NCBI GenBank assembly: GCA_020721205.1
Contig: DYNF01000026.1
Coordinates: 1 to 42,603, forward strand
From: Prochloron sp. SulCav_FS08_3_32_3330
Lineage (GTDB): Bacteria; Cyanobacteriota; Cyanobacteriia; Cyanobacteriales; DYNF01
DNA: 42,603 nucleotides
Reading direction: 5' to 3'
The notes under the pieces were generated by a model. That model saw only the letters and a list, made by a program, of their open reading frames with translations. It did no database searches and had not been told where the DNA came from. Positions 22,934-42,603 of this stretch are shown one piece after another. How positions within the stretch are numbered: position 1 is the first letter of the stretch; the number at the start of each line of letters is the position of its first letter. The position numbers and the translations under genes were made by a program.

Positions 22934-25900
22934 ATGAATCAGAAAAAATCCACTCAAACTTTAAAATCCATACTTCAAACTTTAACCAGTGTATTTCTGA
23001 ACTGGCTTAATTTATTCTGGCAAATCATCAGAGGATTTGTCTTATTTATTAAGAAAAAAATCACGAAATTTAAGAGACAACTAAGACAAACAAAGGTTAA
23101 TAACCATAAAATTAATACCCCCTTTTCACTTCAAGAAAGGGGTCAATTTGGTAATATCAAAAAACAACGCCCTACGTTATATCAATATTTAAAATTATTT
23201 ACCCCCAAATTCCGCTTTAAATCATGGAAATGGAAAAGATTTATCCTTTCCATGACTATGACCTTTATTTTAACCCTACAATTTACGGGGATTAATTGGT
23301 GGCAGTTACCCCAACCTGCTCATGCGGCGGCTAGTTTAAGTATTGAACCTTTAACATGGGATTTTGTGGGTTTAGATAGCAATAAACCAGACGCACCCGA
23401 TAATCAAGGACCGAAAGATTATATGGTAGGTTCAAGGGTTTGTAATATGGGAGATGAACCCGTTAGAGATGTAACAGTACAATATCATAATGATGGGGTA
23501 GACAACGGTTATACCTACATTAATATCGCTACAGATACCTTATATCTCGACTATTTACCACCGAATCTCAATACTATTCCCGGAACTATTGCTACCATAC
23601 CCGGAGGATATACCTTTGAAACTGGTGGTATTCCTAACGCTACTAAATACGAAATTAACTATACTCCTACCAATTGTGCGGACTTTTATATTAATTTTGA
23701 CGTAGATCGTAATACCGACGCATGGCATACTACCCAAAAATATTATATGGAGGCTACCGCTAAATCTTCGGCTGGGGCGTTAGTAGGACCAGTGAGAACA
23801 CCCCAACCTCGTCAGATCTATATTGAACAATTAATATCCCAAGCCCGTAACGAGGTTAGAAGTTTTGGTTGTAGTGTGGCTGGTGGTGCTTTTCAACAAT
23901 ACACAGTTAATGTTGCAGTAGGGGATGTGATGATCTGTACGGCGGTAGGACATACCTCCACTGCTTATCCTCAGTTAAGTTTTACGGCTAATTTTCCCAA
24001 TGTCATTTTCCAAATTTTAGATGTTAATACGAGTTATTCTAACCCAATAGGAGGTAAAAATAGTGCGGTTTATGCTGATGGTTGTGGTTGGGTGCAGGAT
24101 CCCACTAGCCCAGATTATCACCGAAGCCCGACTAACTGTGCAGGTGCCGGTTGGCCCGGTCAATATACGGATAACTCAGGGGGTGAAGGTACAGGTTTAG
24201 ATGTAGTTACAAATTATACGGTTAAAGTTCTGAGTAAACCTACAGGATCAACGGTGGAAGTTTCTAATATTGTGTTGGACTTTTCCGGTGGTAGTTTTCA
24301 CTATAATTCTGATTATGGCACAGACTTTTGTGGTACTACTGACAATACAAACTGTATTATTATTAATTTTGAGGAAGAAAATTCTGATTTAAGTATTATT
24401 AAAAGTCACGATGGTAATTTTATTCTAGGTGCTAATCAATACACCATGACTATTACTGATGATAATAATAGTGTTCCTGCTAAAGATATTAAATTCTATG
24501 ATACTTTACCCGTTGGTTATACCTTTAATACGGCTGATTTAATTGCCAATGATGGAGTAGGACAAGATGGCACAAAATGGTATTGTACGATCACGGATCC
24601 TAGTGCCTTTGGCGGTCAAGACAGGAGTGTTGTCTGTAATTATACTAATGGTACTTTTTTAACTAAAACTGATGACTTCTTTGATCATACAGATCCTCAA
24701 ACTTTAATTTTTAATGTTATTGTTGCCTCACCTCCGGCTTCCACTAATAGCACGAATACGGCTTGTGTTAAGGCTTCAAATGATCTAAATACAGCGAATA
24801 ATTGTGATCCTGATCCCACGACTTTAATTTTTGGTCCGAATATTGAATTAACAAAAGATGATTCTTCAACCGGATCAATTGAGCCAAGAACAGCAAAAAC
24901 AAATGAAACCTTTGTGGCAGGTGGCACTCAAACCTATCGCTTTCAAGTGGCAAAAACCACTGATGCTTATAATGTCAATGGACCTTTAACCCTTGTGGAT
25001 ACTTTACCCACAGGTGTTACTTATGTAAGTAATAACGGTAATGATGGTTGGTCATGTAGTGCAAATGGTCAAATTGTAACTTGTACAAGGGCAACAGGAT
25101 TAACTGGACTTACTACCGATACCACTTCTAAAACTACCTTTGCCATGACGGTGGCTGTGTCTTTAAATGCCGTAGATATGGATAGCGGTACGGCAGGAGT
25201 ACAGGTTATTAATACTGCTACTGTTACCAGTGGTAGTTTAGATGTTAACCCCAATGATAATACAGATACCCAGAAAAATACAGTAACGATACCTGCACCT
25301 GATTTAACCATTGATAAAACCGATAATAGTTTACCTTTTATTTTCAACAATACAACTCCGGTTAATAGTGTTTATATCTTTACTATTGCTAATAAAAGTA
25401 CAGCCGGAACAATTACCACCACTGGACCTTTAGTATTTCAGGATATTTTACCTTCTCACTTAAACTTAGTATCAGCAGGAAATGCGCCGGGTAGTACAGG
25501 CTGGACTTGTACTCCTTCTGGTGCAACTACCGCTCCTACCCCACCTACGGCTATCCCTTTAGCCGCACCAACTTATAATGATCCCGTTGGTTCTGTAGGT
25601 GTAACTGTTAATTGTACCAATCCTAATCCCTTACCTCCGGGAGCTAGTACCCAAATTCGTTTAGTTATTAATCCTAATTTTAATCCGCCGGGAAATGGTG
25701 CTAATTACAATATTGGCAACCGTGCTACCGTGACAACCCAAGGAGAAACTAATTTTGATTTTGGGGATGATCCGGCTAACGGATCAGGAGATACTAATAA
25801 TATCTGTAAGGCAAGAAATCCAGTTATTACCACTGCTAACTGTGATGAAGAAATTACCAACATTATTGATAGTGCCAACTCCATTGACGTGGCATCTACG

Positions 25901-28900
25901 AAGATTGTCAGAGATACAGCACCCCCTGCTACCTATCCTACAACACCTGTCCCTCCTACTTCTATTTCAACGATTGCACCCGGATCCACCATCTACTATT
26001 CAATTTTACTCAACACTACTGCTATAGGACAGGGTGCTACAAATATCACTGGTACGGGTACATTTACTGATACGATCCCTGCGGGAATTACGGGTATTAG
26101 TGCTACTTGTACTGTATCCGGCAATGGTGGCTCAGGTGGGGGTTCAAATCTTTGTTGTACACCTTCTATTTCTGGTAATACGATAACTTGTAATGGTTAT
26201 AGCTTAAGAAAGGGCGGCACCAAAGGACTTGATGATCAACTCAGAATTAATGTTGTGGGGACAGTTAATTCCACTTTTGCTGGAAATTTAGTTAATACGG
26301 CAATTGTGGGTCTAAGTGCGGGTTTAGATGAAGATCCCACTAATAACATTAGTACAGTAGTAACTTATGTACCCGGGGCTGATCTAAGTATTACCAAAAA
26401 TGCTTTTAGTAATTTTACAGTAGGTACAGACTCAATTTATACTTTAACGGTTAAAAATGAAAGCCCGTCTACAGCACCTAATAACTTCAGCACCACTGGT
26501 TTAATTACAGTCAGAGATAAATTACCTACTCAATTAGATTTTGTTTCGGCGGCTGGATCAGGTTGGTTTTGTAATTATGATAATACAACTCGTGTTGTTA
26601 CTTGTACTACTACTCAAGTTTTAGCACCCCAAGCTACCAGTGTCATTAATTTAACTGTTAAACCAAATTTAGCAGGGTCTGTTACTAATGCCGCTAGTTT
26701 ACAATATGGCGGTGATCCCTTAGATGATGATGAAAATGGCTTTTATGTAGGTGGTGGAAATAGTGTTACTGATGATGTGAATGGTAACGGGATGTTTGAT
26801 ACTGGAGATGACCCTAATAGTAATGATTTTGATGCAAAAACTACCACAGTAATAGCCCCTAATGTGGACTTAAATATTACGAAAACGGCTCAAACGGCTT
26901 TTCCTTTAGGTCAACAGGCAACTTATCGCATTAATGTGGCTAATCATAATGCAGTGGGAGCTACTGCGGCGATCGCACCGATTACGGTAACGGATCAACT
27001 ACCACAGGGAGTTAATTTCGTCTATGCTTCCACTGTTACAGGAAGCCCTTGGGTTTGTACATCCACAACTAATGCACTACCTGATAATAATAACAATGGC
27101 ATTGTAGACGCAGGAGACGGGGATTTTAATCCGGGACCACCGATCACACCGATTAATGATGGTTTTGAAACTGTTAGCTGTACTCGTTATACCAATATTG
27201 CTCCTAATGAAACAGCAACTTTTGATCTCAATGTCTTAGTGACAGCTAGTGCTAATACCGCCGCACCTATTACTAATAATGTGCGTGTCACTAGCAGTAG
27301 TGATATTTGTAAAGATTTTACTAATGGTAATTGTACTGATACTGTCACTCCGGTAGACACTAATCCTGCAAATGATACGAATAGTCAACCTAATGATAAT
27401 AAAACTACTTTAAATGTTAATGTAACTCCTGCGTCTGACTTAACTATCTATAAAAAAGCGATTACTCAAACTTCTCAAATTAATCCCCCTCAATTTTTAG
27501 TAGATAATACGGGACAGTTTGAAATAACGGTAGTTAATAATGGACCTTCCACTTATACTGGTTTGATTACTTTTACCGATGCTTTAAATAATAACTTTAC
27601 TTTTTCATCAGGAAGTGGAGGTGGGTTTATTTGTGAGAATTCAGGTCAAAATGTTACCTGTGAGACTAAATCACCTATCACCTCACCCCCCACCCCCACC
27701 CCCATAACTTTAAATCCCGGTGCTTCAGCCGTTGTGAAAATTAATGTCACTGTGGCAAATACACCAACGGCGGCGATCACTGATACGGGTGCAGATCAAG
27801 CAGGAGATAATATTAGTAATCTTGCAAAGATTACCAGCCCCGTTACTACCCCTATTATTCCTAACTCTAGTAATACTGATATGAATAATGACAGTGGAAC
27901 GGAGATCGTTGATATTGAGCCATTTGTGGCTGATTTAGTCTTACAAAAAGATGATGGTGATGGAGAATATGCCCTGACCCCTTCTACTCATAATGGTGTG
28001 GGAGCTTTATTTGATGAGCCTCTTTTAACTCAAAATCGTCAGTATTTTTCCACAAGTAATACTGCACCTCCCGGAGGTGGTTCATGGAAGGGAGCTTATA
28101 CCCTAGAAGTAACCAACAAGGGACCAGCGATCGCTAAATATCCTGTAAAAATTACCGATACTTTACCCACAGGATTAACCTTTAGTAGTGCTAATGGTGT
28201 CGGTTGGACTTGTGGTGCTGTTCTTCAAGTTGTTACCTGTACATACGATATTGCTACGGATAAAAATGGTGATCTCACAATTGATAATAACGATGATTTC
28301 TTAAGATCAGGGGAAAATACAGGAGTACAAATTATTGTTAATGTAGATCATGCTCTTGTTACAGGGGATCCTGATAATGATGGTGCGATCGGACGAGTTA
28401 CCAATAGTGCTACTATCACCAGTGGAACAACAGATAGTAATAATTCTAATAATACCAATAGTGAAATTACGATTATTCGAGAAGCGGCGGATCTTTCTGT
28501 CACGAAAACAGATAGTGCTGATCCCATTTCTTTAGGTGCTTCATTTACCTATACTGTCACTATTCATAATGATACCCCCGGCTATACAGGAGATATAGTA
28601 GGACCTATTTATGCTACGGATTATTTACCCACAGGTGTGGTTTATGATGGTAGTAATACCACAGCCGGAACTACTGTGGATATTACCAGTAGTAATACAG
28701 GTACAGCTTCTTGTACTTGGCGACTGGTGACAAGTGGCGGTAATTATGTGAGTTTTGTCTGTGATGATGGAACATTTGGCGGTACTTATCCAAACTTAGC
28801 TAATCTTTCTACCAGTTCTTTTACCTTCAAAGTGAAAGTTAATGATCCCACTGTGCAGTCTATTGAGAAAAACTTAGTACGGGTGGGAGCTAGTATAGAT

Positions 28901-31348
28901 GAACCAGATAATCCGGATCAGGTAATCTGCGATCGCACGGATCCTCCTTTCATTGCTCCTTATAGTCGTATCAATGTTCCTCTTGGTAGAACTAATAATT
29001 GTTCCATTGAGCCAACAACTATTACAGGGGCGAAAAATGCTGATTTAGTGATTATTAAACAAGCAGGAGCAAATAATAATGATAATCCTCCCGCCGAAAG
29101 TTTAAATAATGAAGATCCTTTCACCTATACCTTTACTGTTAGTAATAATGGGGCTGATGATGCTCAACAGGTATTATTAAAAGATGTATTTCCTGACGGT
29201 GTAATACCAGTAGACGCTAATGCAGGAACTCCGGGTATTCAGATTACCTATACTATTAATGCGGGACATACGACAAGCACAACCCCTTATGATTCTGATT
29301 TAACCACTCCGGCTATTGAACCGACAATAGTTACCCGAACTTGTAGTTATAATGAAGGTGCTAATACCTTCTCTTGTAAGTTATATACGGTTTCTAGCAC
29401 AGAAAAAACCGGAGGAACAGGTCCAATTATTATTACCCTCAATATGAAGGTAAATACGGCTTCAGGTACTCCTAGTAATGAGGCTACTTTAGAAAGCAGT
29501 ACCAGTGATAATACTCAGAATAATAATTGTACTGCTAATAGTTTCACCAATACTGCTATTACTAATTGTGATCTGGAATTAATTCAAGTTGGTACTGTCA
29601 CCGCTACCCTAGATTTTGGAGATGCGCCTAATATCTATAAAACAACTTCAGCCAGTGGTGGTCCCAGTCATACTCCTAGCACTAATCTCTTGATGGGTAC
29701 AAATGCCACTGACACTGAAAGTGATGCTCCTGCTACTTTAGATGGTACAGGAGATGATACCACAGGCACAGATGATGAAGATGGGGTTACTTTTGGTCCT
29801 TTAGTGGCAACAGTAAACGCTTATAGTGTTAAAGTGAAAGTAACTAATACCACAGGTAGTAATGCTTATTTAGCAGGTTGGATTGACTTTAATCAAAATA
29901 GTACATTTGAAGCCGGAGAAGGGGTTGTTTATGACTTTGATCCGAGTACAGCAGGAATACAACCTATTCCCACAGGTACAAATGGTAGTAATATCACTTT
30001 AAACTGGACTGGTTTATCAGGAATTACCACAGGTAATACTTATGCTCGTTTTCGCATCAGTGATCAGACTTTAGCGACCACTGACTTTGAAGGTGCTAAA
30101 GGTATTGGGGAAGTGGAAGATTATCCTTTAACAATTATTCCAGTTGGTGCTTATAAATCAGTTCAATTAACCACTGATGCTAATAGCAATAATCAAATTG
30201 ATCCGGGTGATAAAGTCACATGGACGATCAAGTACATTAATACAGGTACAGTAGACATTTCTGATTTTAATGTCAGTGATACGATTGATACTGCTGAGTT
30301 AACTTATGTTACTGGTACTTTAGCTATTGCTACTAATACGGCTCAAAGTGTTCCGGCGGGTAATGTACCTACAGTTAATACTAATTATGACGGTACTAAT
30401 ACTCATCCTAACTTCTTTGATAGTCCAGTTTTGTTTAAAGCAGGAGGTTTAATTACCATTACTTTCCAAACTGAAGTTAAAGCAGGTGTCTCAGTCACAA
30501 AATATAACCAAGCCACAGGCACAGATCCAGCTTCAACTAAAACCGATAATGTGGACAATACTACTACAGGTTTACCCGCAGGTGTAAGTGTTACTATGGG
30601 TAGTATTGCTCAAACTCAAACGGCGGCGATCGAGCCTACTACTATTACCCTTGGTGCAGAAAAACCGAATATTATCCTCTTAAAAAGGATTACGGGAGTT
30701 TATCGCCAAAATACACCTGTTGTAACTAATCAACTTCAACCTTTTTCTCTCTTTCATGAAAATGGTGCTGATCCTAACGATGATCCGGCTGAGTGGAAGA
30801 ATAATAAGTTTCCAGCGTTTAATGCTGATGGTATTTATTTAGGAGATACTCCCACTAATCCTGAAAATAATGCTTATTTACGAGGTGCGATCGATGGCGG
30901 TTTAGTGGAATCCGATGATGAGATTGAATTTACTATTTATTTCGTCAATAAAGGTGGTGCTAATGCTACTAATGTAACTTTATGTGATCTTGTACCCGCT
31001 AATCTTGATTTTGTAGCTAATGCTTATGGATCGGGTAAAGGGATCGCAGTCTCCTTTGATGCTACTAAATTAAATCTTGAGCCTAATCTTTTCTATTCTA
31101 ATGCTAATGGTGATGATGAAGGTACTTTCTTTGCACCCGGAGTAGATACCACTGCTACTACTCCTAAATGTCCTTTTGATAATGATGGTTCAGCACCTCC
31201 GCCTTTAGGTGCTGATGATTTAGCTGATAATACTGATGGTGTAGTAGCGGTAGATTTAGGTACAGTGCCTTATGCTATCCCTTGGAATGATCCGAACCCG
31301 AAATATGATTCTTATGGGTTTATCCGTTTTAGAGCGAAAGTTAAATAG
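22934..31348 (+). CDS. Giant secreted DUF11/GEVED repeat surface protein
   Basis: A 2804-residue predicted cell-surface or secreted protein. A ~100-residue Lys/Arg-rich N-terminal extension precedes a signal-peptide-like hydrophobic segment (~104-125, FILTLQFTG) ending at PQPAHAA (about 133). After a ~350-residue unique region come about ten DUF11-type Ig-like repeats, starting near 485, 635, 790, 982, 1150, 1310, 1502, 1666, 1853 and 2037. Each opens with a DLxIxK-type strand. Most carry a Trp-x-Cys...Val-x-Cys pair that may form a disulfide. A GEVED domain lies at ~2226-2395 (LDFGDAPNIY, GWIDFNQN, GEVEDYPL), and two more repeats follow. Asp-rich EF-hand-like loops are at ~1264-1290, 1384 and 1776. 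No PEP-CTERM or sortase tail is seen. Probable adhesin or envelope layer protein; inferred. Confidence 0.85.
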   Translation: MNQKKSTQTLKSILQTLTSVFLNWLNLFWQIIRGFVLFIKKKITKFKRQLRQTKVNNHKINTPFSLQERGQFGNIKKQRPTLYQYLKLFTPKFRFKSWKWKRFILSMTMTFILTLQFTGINWWQLPQPAHAAASLSIEPLTWDFVGLDSNKPDAPDNQGPKDYMVGSRVCNMGDEPVRDVTVQYHNDGVDNGYTYINIATDTLYLDYLPPNLNTIPGTIATIPGGYTFETGGIPNATKYEINYTPTNCADFYINFDVDRNTDAWHTTQKYYMEATAKSSAGALVGPVRTPQPRQIYIEQLISQARNEVRSFGCSVAGGAFQQYTVNVAVGDVMICTAVGHTSTAYPQLSFTANFPNVIFQILDVNTSYSNPIGGKNSAVYADGCGWVQDPTSPDYHRSPTNCAGAGWPGQYTDNSGGEGTGLDVVTNYTVKVLSKPTGSTVEVSNIVLDFSGGSFHYNSDYGTDFCGTTDNTNCIIINFEEENSDLSIIKSHDGNFILGANQYTMTITDDNNSVPAKDIKFYDTLPVGYTFNTADLIANDGVGQDGTKWYCTITDPSAFGGQDRSVVCNYTNGTFLTKTDDFFDHTDPQTLIFNVIVASPPASTNSTNTACVKASNDLNTANNCDPDPTTLIFGPNIELTKDDSSTGSIEPRTAKTNETFVAGGTQTYRFQVAKTTDAYNVNGPLTLVDTLPTGVTYVSNNGNDGWSCSANGQIVTCTRATGLTGLTTDTTSKTTFAMTVAVSLNAVDMDSGTAGVQVINTATVTSGSLDVNPNDNTDTQKNTVTIPAPDLTIDKTDNSLPFIFNNTTPVNSVYIFTIANKSTAGTITTTGPLVFQDILPSHLNLVSAGNAPGSTGWTCTPSGATTAPTPPTAIPLAAPTYNDPVGSVGVTVNCTNPNPLPPGASTQIRLVINPNFNPPGNGANYNIGNRATVTTQGETNFDFGDDPANGSGDTNNICKARNPVITTANCDEEITNIIDSANSIDVASTKIVRDTAPPATYPTTPVPPTSISTIAPGSTIYYSILLNTTAIGQGATNITGTGTFTDTIPAGITGISATCTVSGNGGSGGGSNLCCTPSISGNTITCNGYSLRKGGTKGLDDQLRINVVGTVNSTFAGNLVNTAIVGLSAGLDEDPTNNISTVVTYVPGADLSITKNAFSNFTVGTDSIYTLTVKNESPSTAPNNFSTTGLITVRDKLPTQLDFVSAAGSGWFCNYDNTTRVVTCTTTQVLAPQATSVINLTVKPNLAGSVTNAASLQYGGDPLDDDENGFYVGGGNSVTDDVNGNGMFDTGDDPNSNDFDAKTTTVIAPNVDLNITKTAQTAFPLGQQATYRINVANHNAVGATAAIAPITVTDQLPQGVNFVYASTVTGSPWVCTSTTNALPDNNNNGIVDAGDGDFNPGPPITPINDGFETVSCTRYTNIAPNETATFDLNVLVTASANTAAPITNNVRVTSSSDICKDFTNGNCTDTVTPVDTNPANDTNSQPNDNKTTLNVNVTPASDLTIYKKAITQTSQINPPQFLVDNTGQFEITVVNNGPSTYTGLITFTDALNNNFTFSSGSGGGFICENSGQNVTCETKSPITSPPTPTPITLNPGASAVVKINVTVANTPTAAITDTGADQAGDNISNLAKITSPVTTPIIPNSSNTDMNNDSGTEIVDIEPFVADLVLQKDDGDGEYALTPSTHNGVGALFDEPLLTQNRQYFSTSNTAPPGGGSWKGAYTLEVTNKGPAIAKYPVKITDTLPTGLTFSSANGVGWTCGAVLQVVTCTYDIATDKNGDLTIDNNDDFLRSGENTGVQIIVNVDHALVTGDPDNDGAIGRVTNSATITSGTTDSNNSNNTNSEITIIREAADLSVTKTDSADPISLGASFTYTVTIHNDTPGYTGDIVGPIYATDYLPTGVVYDGSNTTAGTTVDITSSNTGTASCTWRLVTSGGNYVSFVCDDGTFGGTYPNLANLSTSSFTFKVKVNDPTVQSIEKNLVRVGASIDEPDNPDQVICDRTDPPFIAPYSRINVPLGRTNNCSIEPTTITGAKNADLVIIKQAGANNNDNPPAESLNNEDPFTYTFTVSNNGADDAQQVLLKDVFPDGVIPVDANAGTPGIQITYTINAGHTTSTTPYDSDLTTPAIEPTIVTRTCSYNEGANTFSCKLYTVSSTEKTGGTGPIIITLNMKVNTASGTPSNEATLESSTSDNTQNNNCTANSFTNTAITNCDLELIQVGTVTATLDFGDAPNIYKTTSASGGPSHTPSTNLLMGTNATDTESDAPATLDGTGDDTTGTDDEDGVTFGPLVATVNAYSVKVKVTNTTGSNAYLAGWIDFNQNSTFEAGEGVVYDFDPSTAGIQPIPTGTNGSNITLNWTGLSGITTGNTYARFRISDQTLATTDFEGAKGIGEVEDYPLTIIPVGAYKSVQLTTDANSNNQIDPGDKVTWTIKYINTGTVDISDFNVSDTIDTAELTYVTGTLAIATNTAQSVPAGNVPTVNTNYDGTNTHPNFFDSPVLFKAGGLITITFQTEVKAGVSVTKYNQATGTDPASTKTDNVDNTTTGLPAGVSVTMGSIAQTQTAAIEPTTITLGAEKPNIILLKRITGVYRQNTPVVTNQLQPFSLFHENGADPNDDPAEWKNNKFPAFNADGIYLGDTPTNPENNAYLRGAIDGGLVESDDEIEFTIYFVNKGGANATNVTLCDLVPANLDFVANAYGSGKGIAVSFDATKLNLEPNLFYSNANGDDEGTFFAPGVDTTATTPKCPFDNDGSAPPPLGADDLADNTDGVVAVDLGTVPYAIPWNDPNPKYDSYGFIRFRAKVK

Positions 31349-35854: not shown

Positions 35855-37348
35855 ATGAGTAAATGTTTTAATCCTGACTGTCTTTATCAAAATCCAATTA
35901 ATAATAAGTTTTGCGAAAGATGCGGTCAAAAATTATTATTAAAAGATCATTTTAGAGGCATGAGCTATTTAGGAGAAGGTGGTTTTGGACGCACATTTGT
36001 GGGGCTTGATCAAGATCGAAGAAATAGCCCTTGTGTGATTAAACAATTTTTACCTTTATCCCAAGGAAGTAATGCTTTAAATAAATGTATTCAATTATTT
36101 GAACAGGAGGCAGAGTTATTAGAAAAGTTAGGAAAACATCCCCAAATTCCTGATTTATTAGCTTTTTTTGAACAGGAGGGAAAATTATATTTAATTCAAG
36201 AATTTATTGACGGTAAAAATTTATTAACGGAGTTACAAGAAAAAGGAAGATATACAGAAGATGAGGTTAAACAATTTTTAATCGAAATGTTACCTGTCTT
36301 AGATTTTATTCATCAAAAATCTGTAATTCATCGTGATATTAAACCAGAAAATATTTTAAGAAGAAATAATAATCTTGATCCTTTAATTTATGGAAAAATT
36401 AGCAATTTAGTCTTAATAGATTTTGGGGTTTCTAAACAAATTTCCGGCGTAGTAATGACGAAAATGGGAACGGGAATAGGCACTCCTGCTTATGCTCCAC
36501 CGGAACAAAATAGAGGTTTAGTTAATGCTTCTAGTGATTTATATAGTTTAGGGGTAACTGCTGTTAGAATGTTAACAGGAGTCTTACCTGAAGAAAGAAA
36601 TGGTATAATTGTAGATGATATTTTTGATCTGTATAATTTAACTTGGATCTGGAAAAATTGGTTAGAAAAAAATCAGATTTCTCTTGATAGTAATTTAATC
36701 GAAATTTTAGAGAAAATGTTAGCAGATAAAATCAGCGATCGCTTTCAAACAGCGAGGGAAGTTTTTGAGGCATTACAAACAAATTTATCTTTAACTCAAA
36801 TACAAGCAAATATTATTTATGATCCCCCTATTACACCCTTCCCACAGGTGACAACGCCGACCCAAAGTACAATTAAATTAAAAACAGCATTAGCAGATTA
36901 TCATAAATTAGATCAACTTTTAGCGGAAAAATATTGGCAAGAAGCGGATCAAGAAACCGAGAAATTAATGTTAATAATTATGAGTAAAACTGGTTGGTGG
37001 GATATTTCTTCTGATGACTTAAAAAATCTTTCTCAAAAAGATGTACAAATCATTGATCAACTCTGGTTAAAATATTCTCAAGAGCAATTTGGTTTTTCCA
37101 TTCAAAAAGAAATTTGGTTAAAATTTGGCGGTAAACTTGATGGTAGTTATGACATTAATTGTTATTCAAAACTGGCAAAAGAAGTAGGCTGGAAAAATGA
37201 AAATGAAATTAACTTTAATACAAATATACCAAAAGGTTATTATCCAAAAGTTAGCGGATGGGGAGGGCTAGTAAGATGGATGGTTGGAGTAGTAGGAGGA
37301 TTAGTTAATAAAAAAGGTTTCTTTTCTTATTTATATTCTAAAGTTTAA
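35855..37348 (+). CDS. Ser/Thr protein kinase with C-terminal GUN4 domain
   Basis: A 497-residue fusion. The N-terminal zinc ribbon has Cys4, Cys9, Cys20 and Cys23. The Hanks-type kinase (~33-315) has Gly loop GEGGFG, catalytic Lys63 in CVIKQF, HRDIKPEN with Asp161, and DFG with Asp189, all intact. The C-terminal GUN4 domain (~343-480) has LDQLLAEKYWQEADQETEKL, LWLKYSQEQFGFSIQ and FGGKLDGSYD. GUN4 domains bind tetrapyrroles and activate Mg-chelatase; in kinase fusions they may sense porphyrin. Position near hemJ and menF is suggestive but not proof of a pigment link. Confidence 0.92.
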   Translation: MSKCFNPDCLYQNPINNKFCERCGQKLLLKDHFRGMSYLGEGGFGRTFVGLDQDRRNSPCVIKQFLPLSQGSNALNKCIQLFEQEAELLEKLGKHPQIPDLLAFFEQEGKLYLIQEFIDGKNLLTELQEKGRYTEDEVKQFLIEMLPVLDFIHQKSVIHRDIKPENILRRNNNLDPLIYGKISNLVLIDFGVSKQISGVVMTKMGTGIGTPAYAPPEQNRGLVNASSDLYSLGVTAVRMLTGVLPEERNGIIVDDIFDLYNLTWIWKNWLEKNQISLDSNLIEILEKMLADKISDRFQTAREVFEALQTNLSLTQIQANIIYDPPITPFPQVTTPTQSTIKLKTALADYHKLDQLLAEKYWQEADQETEKLMLIIMSKTGWWDISSDDLKNLSQKDVQIIDQLWLKYSQEQFGFSIQKEIWLKFGGKLDGSYDINCYSKLAKEVGWKNENEINFNTNIPKGYYPKVSGWGGLVRWMVGVVGGLVNKKGFFSYLYSKV

Positions 37349-37375: not shown

Positions 37376-38974
37376 CTATTTATGATTAAAATGCCAAACA
37401 GCATCCCAATTATGGGGATCAATTGTAGTTTTGAGTATTTCAATCCGTTTAAGATATAATAAAGCCGTTTTATCAACTTCATTAATATTTAAAACTTTTT
37501 GAAAATAATCTTGAGCTTGATTCCATTTTCCTTGTTGATAAAATTCTAAAGCTAAATTAAACTCTGTTTGAGTTTTTAATTTAAAATCAATCGTTTTCTC
37601 ATCTTCAGCATCTAATACTTGATATAAATTAATCGCTTCCTTTCTACCCTTTACTGTCACTCGATCTAAAAAATAAATATGATAATTTTGAGGATTTTCT
37701 AAATTATTAAAAACTGAATCAGAAATTAACATATTAATACCATAAATCTTCGTTAAACTTTCAATCCGAGCCGCTAAATTAACACTATCGGATAAAGCAT
37801 CTCCTTGAAACCGTTGAGATTCTCCTACAATACCGAGCATAATATGACCAATATGAAGACCAATACCGATGGAAATAGGAATATATCCTGCTCTTTTTCG
37901 CCCACGATTATATTCATTTAATCTATCAATATGAGCAATTCCAGCATTTAAAGCATCATTAGGGCATTTTGGAAAAGCCGCCATAATACTATCACCAATA
38001 TATTTCATAATAAAACCATTGTAATTACGAATAACTGGAGACACAGCACCTAAATAATTATTCACAAAATTAAAAATTTCTTGAGGAGTCATACTTTCAG
38101 CAATGGTGGTAAAGGAGCGAATATCAGAAAACAAGATTGACACTTCTCGACTTACATGATCCCCTAATTGAATATTAACGATATTCTCTCGTCCCAAAAA
38201 CTCAAGATATTCTGAGGGAACAAAACGAGCAAAAGCATTTCTTTCTAACTCTAAATCTTTTTGAGCTTTTCTTCTCTCTGTAATATCAATCCCTACTGAT
38301 ACTAGGGCTGTGCCATCATTATACCTTTGTACCACAATTAAATAATAACATTGTTCCCCATTAATATAAATGGGAATTTCTGCTGTTTTGGAGTTTTCAG
38401 AGCTTTCAATAAACTCAGAAATAAACTCAGAAAATTCCGGTGAACTTTTTAAAAAATTTAACTCTTTGCCCACAAAATTTTCAGGAGATAAATTTAAAGT
38501 TTTGGCTAAATGTTGATTTACCCCGATATAAAAACCCTCCATACTGATCCAAGAAATTGTCCCCGGCACAGCATTTAATACCGCTTCTAGTTGTGCTTTC
38601 GCATCTGCTAATTGGGTTTCCCTTGCCTTCAGATTTCTTACCATATCTTGAAAAATTTGTGCTAAAGTTCCTAAAGGATCATCTCTACAAGCCACTTCAT
38701 CTAAATGATTTTCTTCAAAAGTTCCCTCTTTAACAGCGATCGCCGCCTTTGTCACCAGCTTAACTTTTTCAATATAACTCGACATTTCTTTATTACGACT
38801 ATGAATTTCATTTTCTAGCCCTGTGGAAAAATCAGTAATCGTTTCTAAAAGCAATTCAATATCTTCATTATTCTGCTGAGATTTTACTAAATCTTGTTGT
38901 AATTTTTGAATAAGATTAATTAAATCTTCTCTCGAATAATTTTTTAATATTTCGATATCTATTTTTTGTGTCAT
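37376..38974 (-). CDS. Class III adenylate cyclase with HAMP-like and PAS domains
   Basis: A 532-residue soluble cyclase. It has a coiled N-terminus (1-75), a HAMP-like segment (~76-120, AAIAVKEGTFEE...), a PAS domain (~128-232) and the catalytic domain (~250-455). TPR-like helices follow (~466-512). The metal aspartates are Asp284 (LFSDIRSFTT) and Asp328 (YIGDSIM). The adenine-specifying pair appears to be Lys324 and Asp392, and Asn399 and Arg403 (VNLAAR) fit the transition-state residues, so ATP rather than GTP is the likely substrate. There is no transmembrane segment. A TTG at 38992 would add 6 residues; I prefer the ATG. It is the last gene of the signalling cluster, 54 bases after the STAS gene. 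Confidence 0.9.
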   Translation of the reverse strand: MTQKIDIEILKNYSREDLINLIQKLQQDLVKSQQNNEDIELLLETITDFSTGLENEIHSRNKEMSSYIEKVKLVTKAAIAVKEGTFEENHLDEVACRDDPLGTLAQIFQDMVRNLKARETQLADAKAQLEAVLNAVPGTISWISMEGFYIGVNQHLAKTLNLSPENFVGKELNFLKSSPEFSEFISEFIESSENSKTAEIPIYINGEQCYYLIVVQRYNDGTALVSVGIDITERRKAQKDLELERNAFARFVPSEYLEFLGRENIVNIQLGDHVSREVSILFSDIRSFTTIAESMTPQEIFNFVNNYLGAVSPVIRNYNGFIMKYIGDSIMAAFPKCPNDALNAGIAHIDRLNEYNRGRKRAGYIPISIGIGLHIGHIMLGIVGESQRFQGDALSDSVNLAARIESLTKIYGINMLISDSVFNNLENPQNYHIYFLDRVTVKGRKEAINLYQVLDAEDEKTIDFKLKTQTEFNLALEFYQQGKWNQAQDYFQKVLNINEVDKTALLYLKRIEILKTTIDPHNWDAVWHFNHK

Positions 38975-39028
38975 TAAATTAGCTTTTAACAATAAAAATT
39001 ATATATTTAGGATTATCTGATTTTGAGC

Positions 39029-39376
39029 TTAATCAATTTTTAATTCCGCACTAGGCAATAATCTTTTAAAATTCTTAATAGATTTTGATTGCCAAGGTAC
39101 ATCATTAGAGCCTAAAATAGTTACTTTAATATTTTTTTCATTCTTGACCTTGAGCATAAATTTAGAAAGCATACTAATTCCAGAACTATTCAAAAATTCT
39201 AGTTTGAGTAAATCTAAAGTTACCGCAGAAGTTTCTGATTCTACCACTTGTTCAAGTAAATCTTTAATCGGTTGATATTCAGAAGGACCACCTAAAGTTA
39301 ATTCCCCTTGAAAAGAGATAGATTCTGTTTCTGGATTGTAAATTACGATGTAATCTTCACCCTTAATTTCCTGCAT
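39029..39376 (-). CDS. STAS-like anti-sigma-factor antagonist/phosphoprotein
   Basis: A 115-residue soluble protein with a STAS-type pattern: VIYNPETESISFQGELTLGG, VTLDLLKLEFLNSSGISMLS (the Ser-Ser pair lies where the regulatory phosphoserine sits) and VTILGSNDVPWQ. Such proteins switch partners according to Ser phosphorylation, set by a GHKL kinase and a PP2C phosphatase. The pattern also recalls the Synechocystis slr1856-type substrate of the icfG cluster and the SiaC phosphoprotein (DUF1987). GGAG precedes its ATG. It lies between the GHKL gene and the cyclase gene. Confidence 0.8.
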   Translation of the reverse strand: MQEIKGEDYIVIYNPETESISFQGELTLGGPSEYQPIKDLLEQVVESETSAVTLDLLKLEFLNSSGISMLSKFMLKVKNEKNIKVTILGSNDVPWQSKSIKNFKRLLPSAELKID

Positions 39377-39448
39377 TTTTGTTTCTCCTGAATGTAATTG
39401 ATTAAATAAATGAATGAATTAATAATTGACGTTTAAATATAATACCAA

Positions 39449-40048
39449 TTAGACAGGTATTTGAGCCATAGTTGTGACAGTCAAAATTTGAGGATTACTA
39501 GAAAATTCACCAAATTTCCAACCTAGGGTAGCCTCATAATCATTAATCATTGTCAATAAACCTAAGCCTGATCCTTCATCATCATCATTTTCGGCACTTT
39601 TTTCTAATTGCATAATATAAAATTCATCAGGATCATTTTCATTTAATTGTTGAATAAAATCTTTTAATTTAATCATTTGTTCCTCGCTCAGAGAATTAAT
39701 CACAAAAAGCACCACTTTAATCTCTGGTTTTTCAATTAAATGAATACCAAAGTGAACTTTACAATTTAAAGCATCATTATTATGGAATTTCATCGCATTT
39801 TCTAATAATTCATTTGCCCCATAACTAACCGCACCTTTAGCTTGTTTTTTGCGACGCTCACTGCTAGGATCTTCATCACTAACAGGAAAAAAGGTAGCGA
39901 GATAATCTGCGACAAAATGGGCTGATAAACGGTTATTACGCCAACGCTGTTTAATCGGACGAGAACTAGGAGAAAATGTTAATACAAGGGAATCATCGTT
40001 ATCCACACTATACAAATCCTCGATAAAATCACCATAGACTTCATTCAT
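39449..40048 (-). CDS. GHKL ATPase-fold protein (switch-kinase/anti-sigma-like)
   Basis: A 199-residue soluble protein with the two landmarks of the GHKL ATP-binding fold: an N-box in YGANELLENAMKFHNN (~75-90) and a G-box in EGSGLGLLTMIND (~158-170). This is consistent with an RsbW/SpoIIAB- or SiaB-like kinase that phosphorylates the STAS partner encoded next. The D-box is not obvious in between (LFVINSLSEEQ), so activity should be tested. It is in the same orientation as its neighbours, 72 bases before the STAS gene. Confidence 0.75.
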   Translation of the reverse strand: MNEVYGDFIEDLYSVDNDDSLVLTFSPSSRPIKQRWRNNRLSAHFVADYLATFFPVSDEDPSSERRKKQAKGAVSYGANELLENAMKFHNNDALNCKVHFGIHLIEKPEIKVVLFVINSLSEEQMIKLKDFIQQLNENDPDEFYIMQLEKSAENDDDEGSGLGLLTMINDYEATLGWKFGEFSSNPQILTVTTMAQIPV

Positions 40049-40359
40049 TGTTATTTAACCTCTTTAATTTTTTTGTACTTACTAAATAGTAACTGATGTT
40101 ATGCAAAAATAACCCAATATTTTATATTGAAACTCAAATTCTTTAAAAGAAAGGAAATTTCTAATTTTAATAATGTTGTTAACATTGTTTTAGAAAAATT
40201 TAATTAGTTGTCATAATTATCCGACTTTTATTTTAGATGAAGAAAAAGCCTTATTTGCTTGAGCATAAATTTTCAACGCTACAGACATTTATAGTTGAAA
40301 GTTGATAGTTAATAGTTGATATTGATATTGAACAGTTCTTAACTATCGTCTATCGGCGA
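40049..40359. other. AT-rich spacer with AACTATC-type repeats
   Basis: No gene. From about 40291 to 40370 it contains repeated GATAGTTAA / AGTTGAT units, the complement of the AACTATC heptamers at the right edge of the window. The rest is AT-rich and may hold the promoter for the GHKL and STAS genes; no clear box was recognised. Confidence 0.65.
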
Positions 40360-40542
40360 TTAACTATCCACTACCAAAGTTTCTGAGTCAATTTCAATTT
40401 TCACAGTAACAGGAGACTTAGGCATTCGCAATTGTGCTTTAGCCCAAAAATCCTCTGATAGAGGAGGAATATCAGAAGTATCAATATCCTCATCTTTCAG
40501 CCTATCAATTCTATTCCAATCTGTTTTTGAGATATTGTTCAT
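40360..40542 (-). pseudogene. Truncated BrnA-type antitoxin fragment
   Basis: A 60-residue frame with TDWNRIDRLKDEDIDTSDIP and LSEDFWAKAQLRMPKSPVTV, the N-terminal pattern of BrnA-like antitoxins. Those normally continue about 25-30 residues into a ribbon-helix-helix. Here the last residues (VVDS) and the stop are encoded by TTAACTATCCACTAC, which belongs to the AACTATC repeat family, so the C-terminus seems to have been lost to repeat invasion. No BrnT toxin frame lies on either side. It could still make a short protein, but I treat it as broken. It splits the signalling cluster. Confidence 0.6.
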
Positions 40543-40608
40543 AATATTTTCGTTCAGAAAGTCATGGATTTGATTATATCAAGAAACCGATCAGATTCAA
40601 TAATTTAA

Positions 40609-41874
40609 TTAATTTTGTTTTAAAACTAATAGGGTAATATCATCAAATATTTTTTGTTCCCCAATATGACGATAAACATCTTTAATAATTATCTGTTTCA
40701 TGTCTTCAGCCGATCGCTCCCAACAACTAGATATAGTATCACAAAGTTTTTCAATACCATATTGTTTTTTATTCATATTTTGAGCTTCGGTAATGCCATC
40801 GGTATAAAGAACGATACCATCACCTGTATTTAATTCTACCAAATGATGATTAATAAAATCAGTAATTTCATCATGAAGACCAATAGGAAAACCTAAATCT
40901 ATGGTATCTATTCGTTCAATTTTACCCCCATGTCTAAACACAATAATTTCTTCATGTTGACCACTAATACTAACTTTATGATCAGCATAATTTAAAATAG
41001 CTAAAGTCAGATTTTTTTCCGATTCCATCCGTTGAATATTATCATAAATAGCTTGATTTAATATATCTAAAAAGCGGACGGGATCATCTTCATTAATTTC
41101 CTTAAGAGTACGCACAGCCATTTGAGTCATCACCATTAAAATACCACTTTCTAAACCATGTCCAGTTACATCTCCAATCGCAATTGTAACAACACCATTA
41201 GTATATAAAACATCATAATAATCTCCGCCCATTTTTTCGGCAGGTTCCATAAATCCAGCAATATCTAAATCTTTAATACTTTGCAACTCATCAGGTTTAG
41301 GAAGAATTAATTGTTGCATTTGTTTAAGCAAATCCAGATCAGCCCCCATGCGTAAATTTTCTTGTGTGAGTTGACTATTTAAAATAGATAATTGCTCTTT
41401 GAGTAAAGATAATTTTTGATTATTCTCTTGTAAATCAAGCATTAATTCCGTGCGACTTTTTTCTTGAATAATATTTCGAGCTTTTTGAATGATCTCATCA
41501 GAAGGTAAAGAAGCATAACCAAGCCACACTAAACACTGTAAACGATGCCAGTTTTTATAAGGAGGGAGAGTTTGAATTTGATCAAAAAAAGTTCTTAGAT
41601 AAGGAGTTTCCCGAAGTGCTAATTTTAAAGAAGATTCATCTGCCATAAAAACGAGACAAAAAGCGACTCCTCCAGTGCCTCGAAATAAACCAATATTTAA
41701 GAGTGATTCACTACAAGTATGACAAAGCGATCGCCCCATTTGAGAAGTAATACTGGCAATTCTGGACGCAATAATCGCATCTTCATGGAGCAATTTCAGC
41801 CCTTGGAGAATTTTTTTGCGCATAGTATTAATGGAATCTTCATTATTGAGGGCAATATTACCAAGAGAAATCAT
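40609..41874 (-). CDS. SpoIIE/RsbU-type PP2C phosphatase, IcfG-like
   Basis: A 421-residue serine phosphatase. The N-terminal ~160 residues are a helical domain with no obvious family. A coiled coil (~145-185) follows, then a PPM/PP2C (SpoIIE) domain (~205-421). The metal-site motifs are intact: MGGDYYDVL, IGDVTGHGLESG, LYTDGITEA and FDDITLLVL. The likely substrate is the phosphorylated STAS protein encoded downstream. The layout recalls Synechocystis IcfG (slr1860). Its ATG overlaps the stop of the upstream phosphatase gene by 4 bases, indicating translational coupling. Confidence 0.88.
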   Translation of the reverse strand: MISLGNIALNNEDSINTMRKKILQGLKLLHEDAIIASRIASITSQMGRSLCHTCSESLLNIGLFRGTGGVAFCLVFMADESSLKLALRETPYLRTFFDQIQTLPPYKNWHRLQCLVWLGYASLPSDEIIQKARNIIQEKSRTELMLDLQENNQKLSLLKEQLSILNSQLTQENLRMGADLDLLKQMQQLILPKPDELQSIKDLDIAGFMEPAEKMGGDYYDVLYTNGVVTIAIGDVTGHGLESGILMVMTQMAVRTLKEINEDDPVRFLDILNQAIYDNIQRMESEKNLTLAILNYADHKVSISGQHEEIIVFRHGGKIERIDTIDLGFPIGLHDEITDFINHHLVELNTGDGIVLYTDGITEAQNMNKKQYGIEKLCDTISSCWERSAEDMKQIIIKDVYRHIGEQKIFDDITLLVLKQN

Positions 41875-42482
41875 TTTTTATACTTTAAAAGAATACAAGT
41901 GGCATCGTCATGTTTTTTGCCGAAACGACGGACAATATTTTGCACAAGGGATTTCGGATTTTCATATAAAATTGAACGATAATCTTCTATTTCAAAACGA
42001 TCCTTAATCCCGTCAGTATAAAGTAAAAGAATATCAGAGGAGGTGAGATTTAGTTTATGTATTACAGGAGTACGCATACAAGTACCAATAACTCCATCAC
42101 TAGAAGGAAGTCTTTTAGATTGTTTACCTAATACTCTAATAACTGTATTCCCCACTCCAGTGTAAGATAATTGACCCGTATTAATTTCTAATACACCTAA
42201 ACCCACAGCCGCACCAATTGTACCTTTACAATGTTCATGGAGTTGTAACAGGGTTTTTTTTAAATCAGCGCTCCAGTTTTCTCGTAAAAATTTTTCAATT
42301 TGTGCCGAAATTAGATAAGCATTTTGCCCATGACCCAAACCATCAATCATTCCTAATAAAATAAAGCCATTATTTTCGTCTATAAGTGCTTTATCTCCAC
42401 TAACTCTTTCCCCAAAACAAGGGCGATTAAAAGAAGCATAATCTAAAATGTTGCTAGTATTACTTTCATTTTTTTCATTCAT
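41871..42482 (-). CDS. RsbX-like PP2C phosphatase
   Basis: A 203-residue single-domain PPM phosphatase. It has a short N-terminus, LGMIDGLGHGQNAYL, GQLSYTGVGNTVIRV, LLLYTDGIKDRF and KHDDATCILL. The size and lack of a sensor domain resemble Bacillus RsbX, which resets the stressosome by dephosphorylating RsbR/RsbS. The first gene of the cluster in the window, it overlaps the next phosphatase by 4 bases. Any stressosome genes (RsbR/S/T) would lie beyond the right edge. Confidence 0.85.
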   Translation of the reverse strand: MNEKNESNTSNILDYASFNRPCFGERVSGDKALIDENNGFILLGMIDGLGHGQNAYLISAQIEKFLRENWSADLKKTLLQLHEHCKGTIGAAVGLGVLEINTGQLSYTGVGNTVIRVLGKQSKRLPSSDGVIGTCMRTPVIHKLNLTSSDILLLYTDGIKDRFEIEDYRSILYENPKSLVQNIVRRFGKKHDDATCILLKYKK

Positions 42483-42549: not shown

Positions 42550-42603
42550 AACTATCAACTATCAACTATCAACTATCAACTATCAACTATCAACTATCAA
42601 CTA
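42550..42603. repeat. AACTATC heptamer array at the right edge
   Basis: Nearly eight tandem copies of AACTATC run into the window end. Before it (42493-42549) are TTATTAG and ATTTGTC units. The array lies immediately upstream of the phosphatase operon, where its promoter would be expected, and extends beyond the window. Confidence 0.85.

Follow-up and report, generated by a model that had tools for sequence, protein, structure and literature searches.

The SiaABCD system of Pseudomonas aeruginosa combines a PP2C phosphatase, a GHKL kinase, a STAS-like switch protein, and a nucleotide cyclase with a helical stalk; SiaC activates this cyclase, the GGDEF enzyme SiaD, by stabilizing the stalk dimer (PMC8457831). 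Cyanobacteria also possess PP2C/kinase/STAS partner switches, such as HmpUVW of Nostoc punctiforme, where the target of HmpV is unknown (PMC8256260), and the icfG cluster. For the Slr1658/Slr1659 pair of Synechocystis (Zer 2018, cited in PMC7555055), the reported phenotypes concern iron recovery and pgr5 rather than cAMP, and the literature examined names no target. In globin RsbRSTX stressosomes (Vibrio), genes for a protoglobin-RsbR, RsbS, RsbT, and an RsbX-like PP2C occur in this order, and the reported outputs are PP2C, c-di-GMP enzymes, or phosphorelays (PMC9237108, PMC4976288).

The window analyzed here, a stretch of 42,603 nucleotides from a Prochloron contig, encodes the same kinds of components as SiaABCD. 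Open reading frames and Pfam matches bear out the original prediction of two PP2Cs, a GHKL protein, a STAS protein, and a class III cyclase on one strand (positions 37376 to 42482, minus strand, as for all features below). An RsbX-like single-domain SpoIIE-type PP2C of 203 amino acids (41871 to 42482; SpoIIE, 45.7 bits) overlaps by 4 nt an RsbU/SiaA-like SpoIIE-type PP2C of 421 amino acids (40609 to 41874; 123.7 bits). Downstream lie genes for the GHKL protein, a putative Ser/Thr kinase (39449 to 40048), the STAS switch protein (39029 to 39376), and the cyclase (37376 to 38992). Because a 560-bp gap holding a 60-amino-acid open reading frame (40360 to 40542) separates the phosphatase genes from the GHKL gene, the phosphatases and the GHKL-STAS-cyclase side may form two transcription units; promoter and terminator scans gave results at chance level. 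The small open reading frame probably lies outside the switch system. It has no Pfam match at an E value of ≤1e-4, and its by-eye likeness to an antitoxin was dropped for that reason.

By family assignment, the GHKL and STAS proteins correspond to the cyanobacterial pair Slr1658/Slr1659, with scores of 252 bits against NCBIfam slr1658_cyano (cutoff, 200) and 148 bits against slr1659_superfam (cutoff, 100). The icfG cluster had been proposed as the nearest Synechocystis relative; by NCBIfam family assignment, the window pair instead goes with Slr1658/Slr1659 rather than with HmpUVW or icfG. In Pfam, the GHKL protein matches DUF6272 (37.1 bits), and the STAS protein matches both STAS (24.6 bits) and SiaC (PF09345; 24.5 bits, exactly the gathering score). 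Against the NCBIfam SiaB family kinase model, the GHKL protein scored 30.1, below the cutoff of 85, and its family profile matched no PDB entry by sequence. By predicted fold, its closest match is SiaB (6kko_A; Z score, 13.3), while the best match of the STAS protein is SiaC from the SiaC-SiaD crystal (7e6g_F). The triplet N63-S64-S65 is invariant across 42 STAS sequences and aligns with N67-T68-S69 of SiaC (positions from PMC8457831). Ser64 (codon at 39185 to 39187) is thus the predicted phosphosite.

Unlike SiaD, the enzyme of the window belongs to the Guanylate_cyc family (71.7 bits) and comprises a helical stalk, a HAMP-like segment, a PAS domain, the catalytic domain, and a C-terminal TPR. 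The catalytic domain contains FSDIRSF, GDS, K330, D398, N405, and R409, numbered from the TTG start, so that both metal-binding Asp residues, the substrate Lys/Asp, and the Asn/Arg of class III adenylate cyclases are all present. Lys330 and Asp398 correspond to the Lys324 and Asp392 of the original prediction, which were correctly identified and had been counted from an internal ATG. Asp398 precedes Asn405 by seven residues, and Arg409 follows four residues after Asn405. This spacing is the pattern of ATP-specific class III cyclases. Among solved structures, its closest relatives are two adenylate cyclases, bPAC and OaPAC, and we predict that the enzyme is a class III adenylate cyclase.

The second PP2C carries the metal-site motifs GGDYYD, GDVTGHG, and DDITLL. 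It scored 39.6 bits against the NCBIfam SiaA equivalog model (cutoff, 700), and in this respect the window, which holds no SiaA equivalog, differs from SiaABCD. A conserved, unassigned N-terminal domain is present that has no Pfam match to RsbU_N; an RsbT-like assignment of this region was dropped (HHalign probability, 11). The short PP2C adjoins RsbR-RsbS-RsbT in four loci (L171, L176, L177, and L184), which share one gene order; in the relative L177, the whole order from stressosome through cluster lies on one contig. The window contig breaks off within a 7-bp TAGTTGA repeat (42555 to 42603), 121 bp upstream of the first phosphatase gene. The cluster is truncated there, which is why the original prediction missed the globin stressosome input. 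Another contig of the same genome, C127, starts with the same repeat and encodes globin-RsbR (with a STAS domain), RsbS, and RsbT, with domains shown on the L177 copies. The shared end repeat and synteny with L177 suggest that the window cluster may join C127. The overlap is a 49-bp repeat that is not unique: several contig ends share it, including that of a contig with dnaK (C27). The globin stressosome is rare, as the Prochloron genome and one distant match were the only occurrences in 292 genomes. In gene content and, as seen in L177, in gene order, the locus resembles the Vibrio globin stressosomes, but the descriptions of those systems mention no SiaBC-like pair accompanied by a class III cyclase or an MscS channel (PMC9237108, PMC4976288).

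A comparison of neighborhoods across cyanobacteria, proposed with the original prediction, was made on two samples of loci around Slr1659 (61 loci from the first genome draw and 80 loci). A class III cyclase recurs within a few genes of the Slr1658/Slr1659 pair in 16/61 and 20/80 loci, and in the genome draw 11 cyclases lie directly downstream versus ∼0.2 expected by chance. The GHKL gene is beside Slr1659 in 53/61 and 77/80 loci. MscS channels are also frequent neighbors.

Within the cyclase stalk, modeled as a single helix (residues 21 to 88), lies the segment DIELLLETITDFSTGLENE (residues 44 to 62; 38807 to 38863), which belongs to a motif with the consensus DLEILLETxTEHSDxxE. Otherwise different effectors share this motif, namely, class III cyclases, GGDEF enzymes, histidine kinases (HisKA), and PAS proteins. 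It was found in 37 of 292 cyanobacterial genomes, all of them among the 47 with Slr1659, and in none of the 245 genomes without Slr1659 (Fisher, 5e-38). Counted by genus, the co-occurrence holds (25/32 versus 0/84; 2e-19). The Prochloron genome encodes 15 class III cyclases, of which only the window cyclase bears the motif; the A2 profile matches its stalk at an E value of 1.6e-19 and no other protein in the genome. Of ∼55 motif genes, 13 are >4 kb away from slr1659; those that were read encode GGDEF proteins or kinases. Some of these unlinked enzymes belong to genomes in which no motif gene neighbors slr1659. Its restriction to Slr1659 genomes makes the motif a likely Slr1659 docking site. 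Stalk docking would not be the only Slr1659 output, because 10 of the 47 Slr1659 genomes lack the motif, as do the MscS-channel neighbors.

Searches of PDB sequences with the motif profile and the stalk segment retrieved generic coiled coils and did not recover SiaD. The GGDEF effector profile matched SiaD over the GGDEF domain only; one single-sequence alignment of a GGDEF effector with SiaD extended into the stalk. Therefore, we claim no homology. The lack of any recognizable sequence similarity between the window stalk motif and the SiaD stalk marks a further difference from SiaABCD. A read-through single-chain model of STAS and cyclase stalk (pTM, 0.57) had good domains and was uninformative on docking.

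Taken together, we consider it probable that a globin stressosome acts through the RsbU-like PP2C and Slr1659 on the cyclase. For every step, we infer protein contacts and phosphorylations as follows. The globin-RsbR/RsbS core would hold the kinase RsbT and free it once the globin detects a change, most likely one in O2, and the short PP2C would reset the stressosome. Freed RsbT would activate the second PP2C, which would strip the phosphate from Ser64 of the STAS protein, with the GHKL protein serving as the counteracting kinase and as a holding partner. In its dephosphorylated form, Slr1659 would then dock at DIELLLETITDFSTGLENE and stabilize the active cyclase dimer, as SiaC does on the SiaD stalk, thereby raising cAMP. 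The SiaABC-like logic with a cyclase output, as originally proposed, agrees with the conserved neighborhood, the SiaB/SiaC folds, and the Slr1659-restricted motif.

The motif evidence gives a linkage without a sign, so docking might instead inhibit or localize the cyclase, with the phosphorylated or free form of Slr1659 leaving it active. The variety of enzymes that carry the motif would also fit a scaffold or localization role, as would the existence of 161- to 164-amino-acid proteins that have the stalk and a HAMP-like segment and lack an enzyme domain. We nonetheless regard this reading as unlikely, since in the template, which the folds match, SiaC activates SiaD via its stalk dimer (PMC8457831).

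That Slr1659 has an unrelated target (e.g., a transcription regulator or ion channel), with the cyclase controlled otherwise, such as by its own PAS domain, appears quite improbable. Loss of slr1658 in Synechocystis alters transcription, most strongly of pgr5 (PMC7555055), and both the motif-free Slr1659 genomes and the adjoining MscS channels are in keeping with such a target; what it leaves unexplained is why the motif is confined to genomes with Slr1659 and why enzymes bearing it lie unlinked where Slr1659 has no motif neighbor. It is likewise very doubtful that both PP2Cs serve the stressosome only, with no action on Slr1659, and that the gene order is due to chance. The 560-bp gap with its extra reading frame would suit that arrangement, as would the RsbX-like gene being missing from all 60 other loci of the first draw, yet the order is repeated in the four loci named above, and 30/61 and 56/80 sampled loci have a SpoIIE-type PP2C gene no more than four genes away from Slr1659.

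Our literature search, which did not cover Zer 2018, found no paper that connects either slr1659 or a stressosome with adenylate cyclase as its output; within this literature, the line from globin stressosome to cAMP had no earlier description. Outside Bacillales, most stressosomes have no proven output, and cyanobacterial Slr1659/HmpV-type switches lack a known target; for both, a common docking motif would supply a concrete set of targets that can be tested quickly. We lean slightly toward a more general reading, in which Slr1659-type STAS proteins are phospho-switches that recognize one stalk-motif docking code, carried by histidine kinases as well as by adenylate and diguanylate cyclases, and a single switch could thereby steer cAMP, c-di-GMP, or phosphorelays, with a globin stressosome as the input here. 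A shared motif would explain how one switch is reused across second messengers and, if the proposed line is true, would provide a route for an oxygen or stress sensor to set cAMP in a photosynthetic bacterium.

The original prediction of a five-gene cluster at positions 37376-42482 was confirmed, with all five genes on the minus strand. On the basis of Pfam and NCBIfam matches, these encode two SpoIIE-type PP2C phosphatases (203 and 421 aa), a GHKL protein of the slr1658 family, a STAS protein of the slr1659 superfamily, and a cyclase with PAS, class III catalytic, and C-terminal TPR domains. The phosphatase genes overlap by 4 nt and are separated from the GHKL gene by a 560-bp gap that holds an unassigned 60-aa open reading frame (ORF); the STAS and cyclase genes lie 36 nt apart in the same reading frame. 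The cyclase retains its metal, substrate, and transition-state residues; the Lys324 and Asp392 named previously are correct when numbered from an internal ATG. Convergent to the cyclase gene, with ends 27 bp apart, is a Ser/Thr kinase gene with a GUN4-like domain (35855-37348). The window also encodes a 2804-aa DUF11/GEVED repeat protein (22934-31348), probably a large surface protein.

A phylum-wide draw of 292 cyanobacterial genomes contained 47 with the slr1659 family. Neighborhoods were counted in a 61-locus set (including 60 further loci) and in 80 named loci. The STAS gene had a GHKL gene close by in 53/61 and 77/80 loci, respectively, and a PP2C gene in 30/61 and 56/80. The comparison across cyanobacteria proposed with the original prediction retrieved a class III cyclase near the STAS gene in 16/61 and 20/80 loci, spanning several families, part of them outside the window's order. 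Class III cyclases number 671 across the 239 Mb of the 47 slr1659 genomes; a cyclase was directly downstream of 11 of 62 STAS genes, versus ∼0.2 expected (assuming 1.1 kb per gene and ignoring shared descent). Other phosphatases found 5′ of slr1658 include kinase-AAA-GAF-PP2C, REC-PP2C, and ammonium-transporter-PAS-PP2C proteins. The last of these (857 aa; locus L048, 9155-11728, also L050 and L051 of the same genus) is directly upstream of Slr1658/Slr1659 and is possibly an ammonium-sensing phosphatase for this switch. Slr1658/Slr1659 also occur in an assembly labeled Thioploca (L173), reflecting either transfer outside cyanobacteria or contamination.

The effectors adjoining Slr1659 have unrelated enzymatic parts, yet share ∼50 N-terminal residues. 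This segment opens with a coiled-coil stretch and continues into DLEILLETTTEHSDxxE, which frequently occurs twice, ∼53 residues apart. Carriers of this stalk motif include class III cyclases, GGDEF proteins, PAS-GAF histidine kinases, PAS proteins, and short stalk-HAMP proteins. Stand-alone motif plus HAMP-like proteins of 161 to 163 aa, with no enzyme domain, follow REC-PP2C and CheB-like genes (L053, 8352-8837; L067, 8360-8851). Beside one motif-bearing GGDEF gene lies a 147-aa ORF, an apparent deletion fusion of a GHKL start and a STAS end (L220, 3718-4161).

A profile search of whole genomes retrieved the motif in 37/292, all within the 47 slr1659 genomes, and in none of the 245 genomes without slr1659 (Fisher test, 5e-38). 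At the genus level, the motif was found in 25/32 genera with slr1659 versus 0/84 without (2e-19). For 42 of the ∼55 genes with the motif, slr1659 is within 4 kb, and for 13 it is not; because the profile was built from slr1659 neighbors, this nearness is partly built in, which does not apply to the co-occurrence or to the distant members. The distant genes that were read encode GGDEF proteins or kinases, and for several the host genome's slr1659 has no motif neighbor. In the window's genome, only 1 of 15 class III cyclases, the window cyclase, carries the motif, and it is the single motif protein (E value, 1.6e-19; next, 0.92). Such a distribution would be expected if a specific partner docked at the motif, making it a candidate docking site.

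Predicted structures point to a comparison with the Pseudomonas SiaB-SiaC-SiaD system. The GHKL model (pLDDT, 89.8) is closest to the kinase SiaB (Z score, 13.3; 156 residues, 3.2 Å), followed by UsfX and SpoIIAB (Z scores, 11 to 12). The STAS domain model (pLDDT, 90 to 97) is closest to SiaC, with a chain from the SiaC-SiaD complex as the first match. In that complex, T68 of SiaC inserts between the stalk helices of the diguanylate cyclase SiaD, N67 and S69 bind nearby, and T68 phosphorylation blocks binding (PMC8457831); the window STAS protein has an invariant N63-S64-S65 in the same setting. The cyclase stalk was modeled as a single helix (residues 21 to 88) containing the motif. No similarity between the motif and the stalk of SiaD could be detected; thus, the likeness to SiaD is one of working, and descent is not claimed.

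An upstream input is suggested by locus L177, from a Microcoleaceae assembly, where the same five genes are preceded by stressosome genes: rsbR, whose product has a protoglobin domain (109 bits), then rsbS and rsbT. On its upstream side, the first phosphatase gene is 121 bp from the end of the window contig, where a TAGTTGA repeat lies. Another contig of this genome, C127, carries rsbR (84% identical to that of L177), rsbS, and rsbT and ends in the same repeat in the same orientation, with a 49-bp overlap. Because the repeat also marks other contig ends, including that of C27 with dnaK, the join rests mainly on the L177 gene order. Such 7-bp tandem repeats lie at or near several contig ends, breaking the assembly (window 42555-42603, C2, C27, C103, C127, and C162). 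L171, L176, and L184 share the stressosome and phosphatase order but have an MscS-type channel gene after the STAS gene (called by Pfam for L171 and L176 and by sequence likeness for L184). MscS-type genes directly 3′ of Slr1659 occur in ∼12/80 named loci (e.g., L171, 7442-9046; L176, 7441-9147; L137, 7364-9028). The stalk motif is absent from the channels adjoining Slr1659; thus, a second kind of Slr1659 output may exist.

In the proposed mechanism, the globin stressosome would release RsbT, which would activate the second PP2C. This phosphatase would dephosphorylate Slr1659 at Ser64, the predicted phosphosite, and Slr1659 would then dock on the cyclase stalk and switch the cyclase. The Slr1658-like GHKL protein, a putative kinase, would rephosphorylate Slr1659, and the first PP2C would reset the stressosome. 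The sign of control and the input signal are borrowed by analogy from SiaC and Vibrio RsbR. Counted against this mechanism are 10 Slr1659 genomes without the motif and the motif-less channels.

The individual parts of the cluster are of known kinds. Described stressosome outputs run through PP2C, c-di-GMP, or phosphorelays (PMC9237108), and a Moorella stressosome that phosphorylates a diguanylate cyclase is cited in PMC4976288. The target of HmpV, the STAS switch of Nostoc punctiforme, is not known (PMC8256260), and an iron-recovery phenotype is given for slr1658 (PMC7555055). Neither an adenylate cyclase output nor the stalk motif is named in these open-access sources on stressosomes, HmpV, and slr1658, and the novelty of both is relative to the open-access literature. 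Globin-RsbR is rare in the 292-genome draw; therefore, the proposed stressosome-cyclase line is known here from two genomes only, and the STAS-cyclase pairing is much wider.
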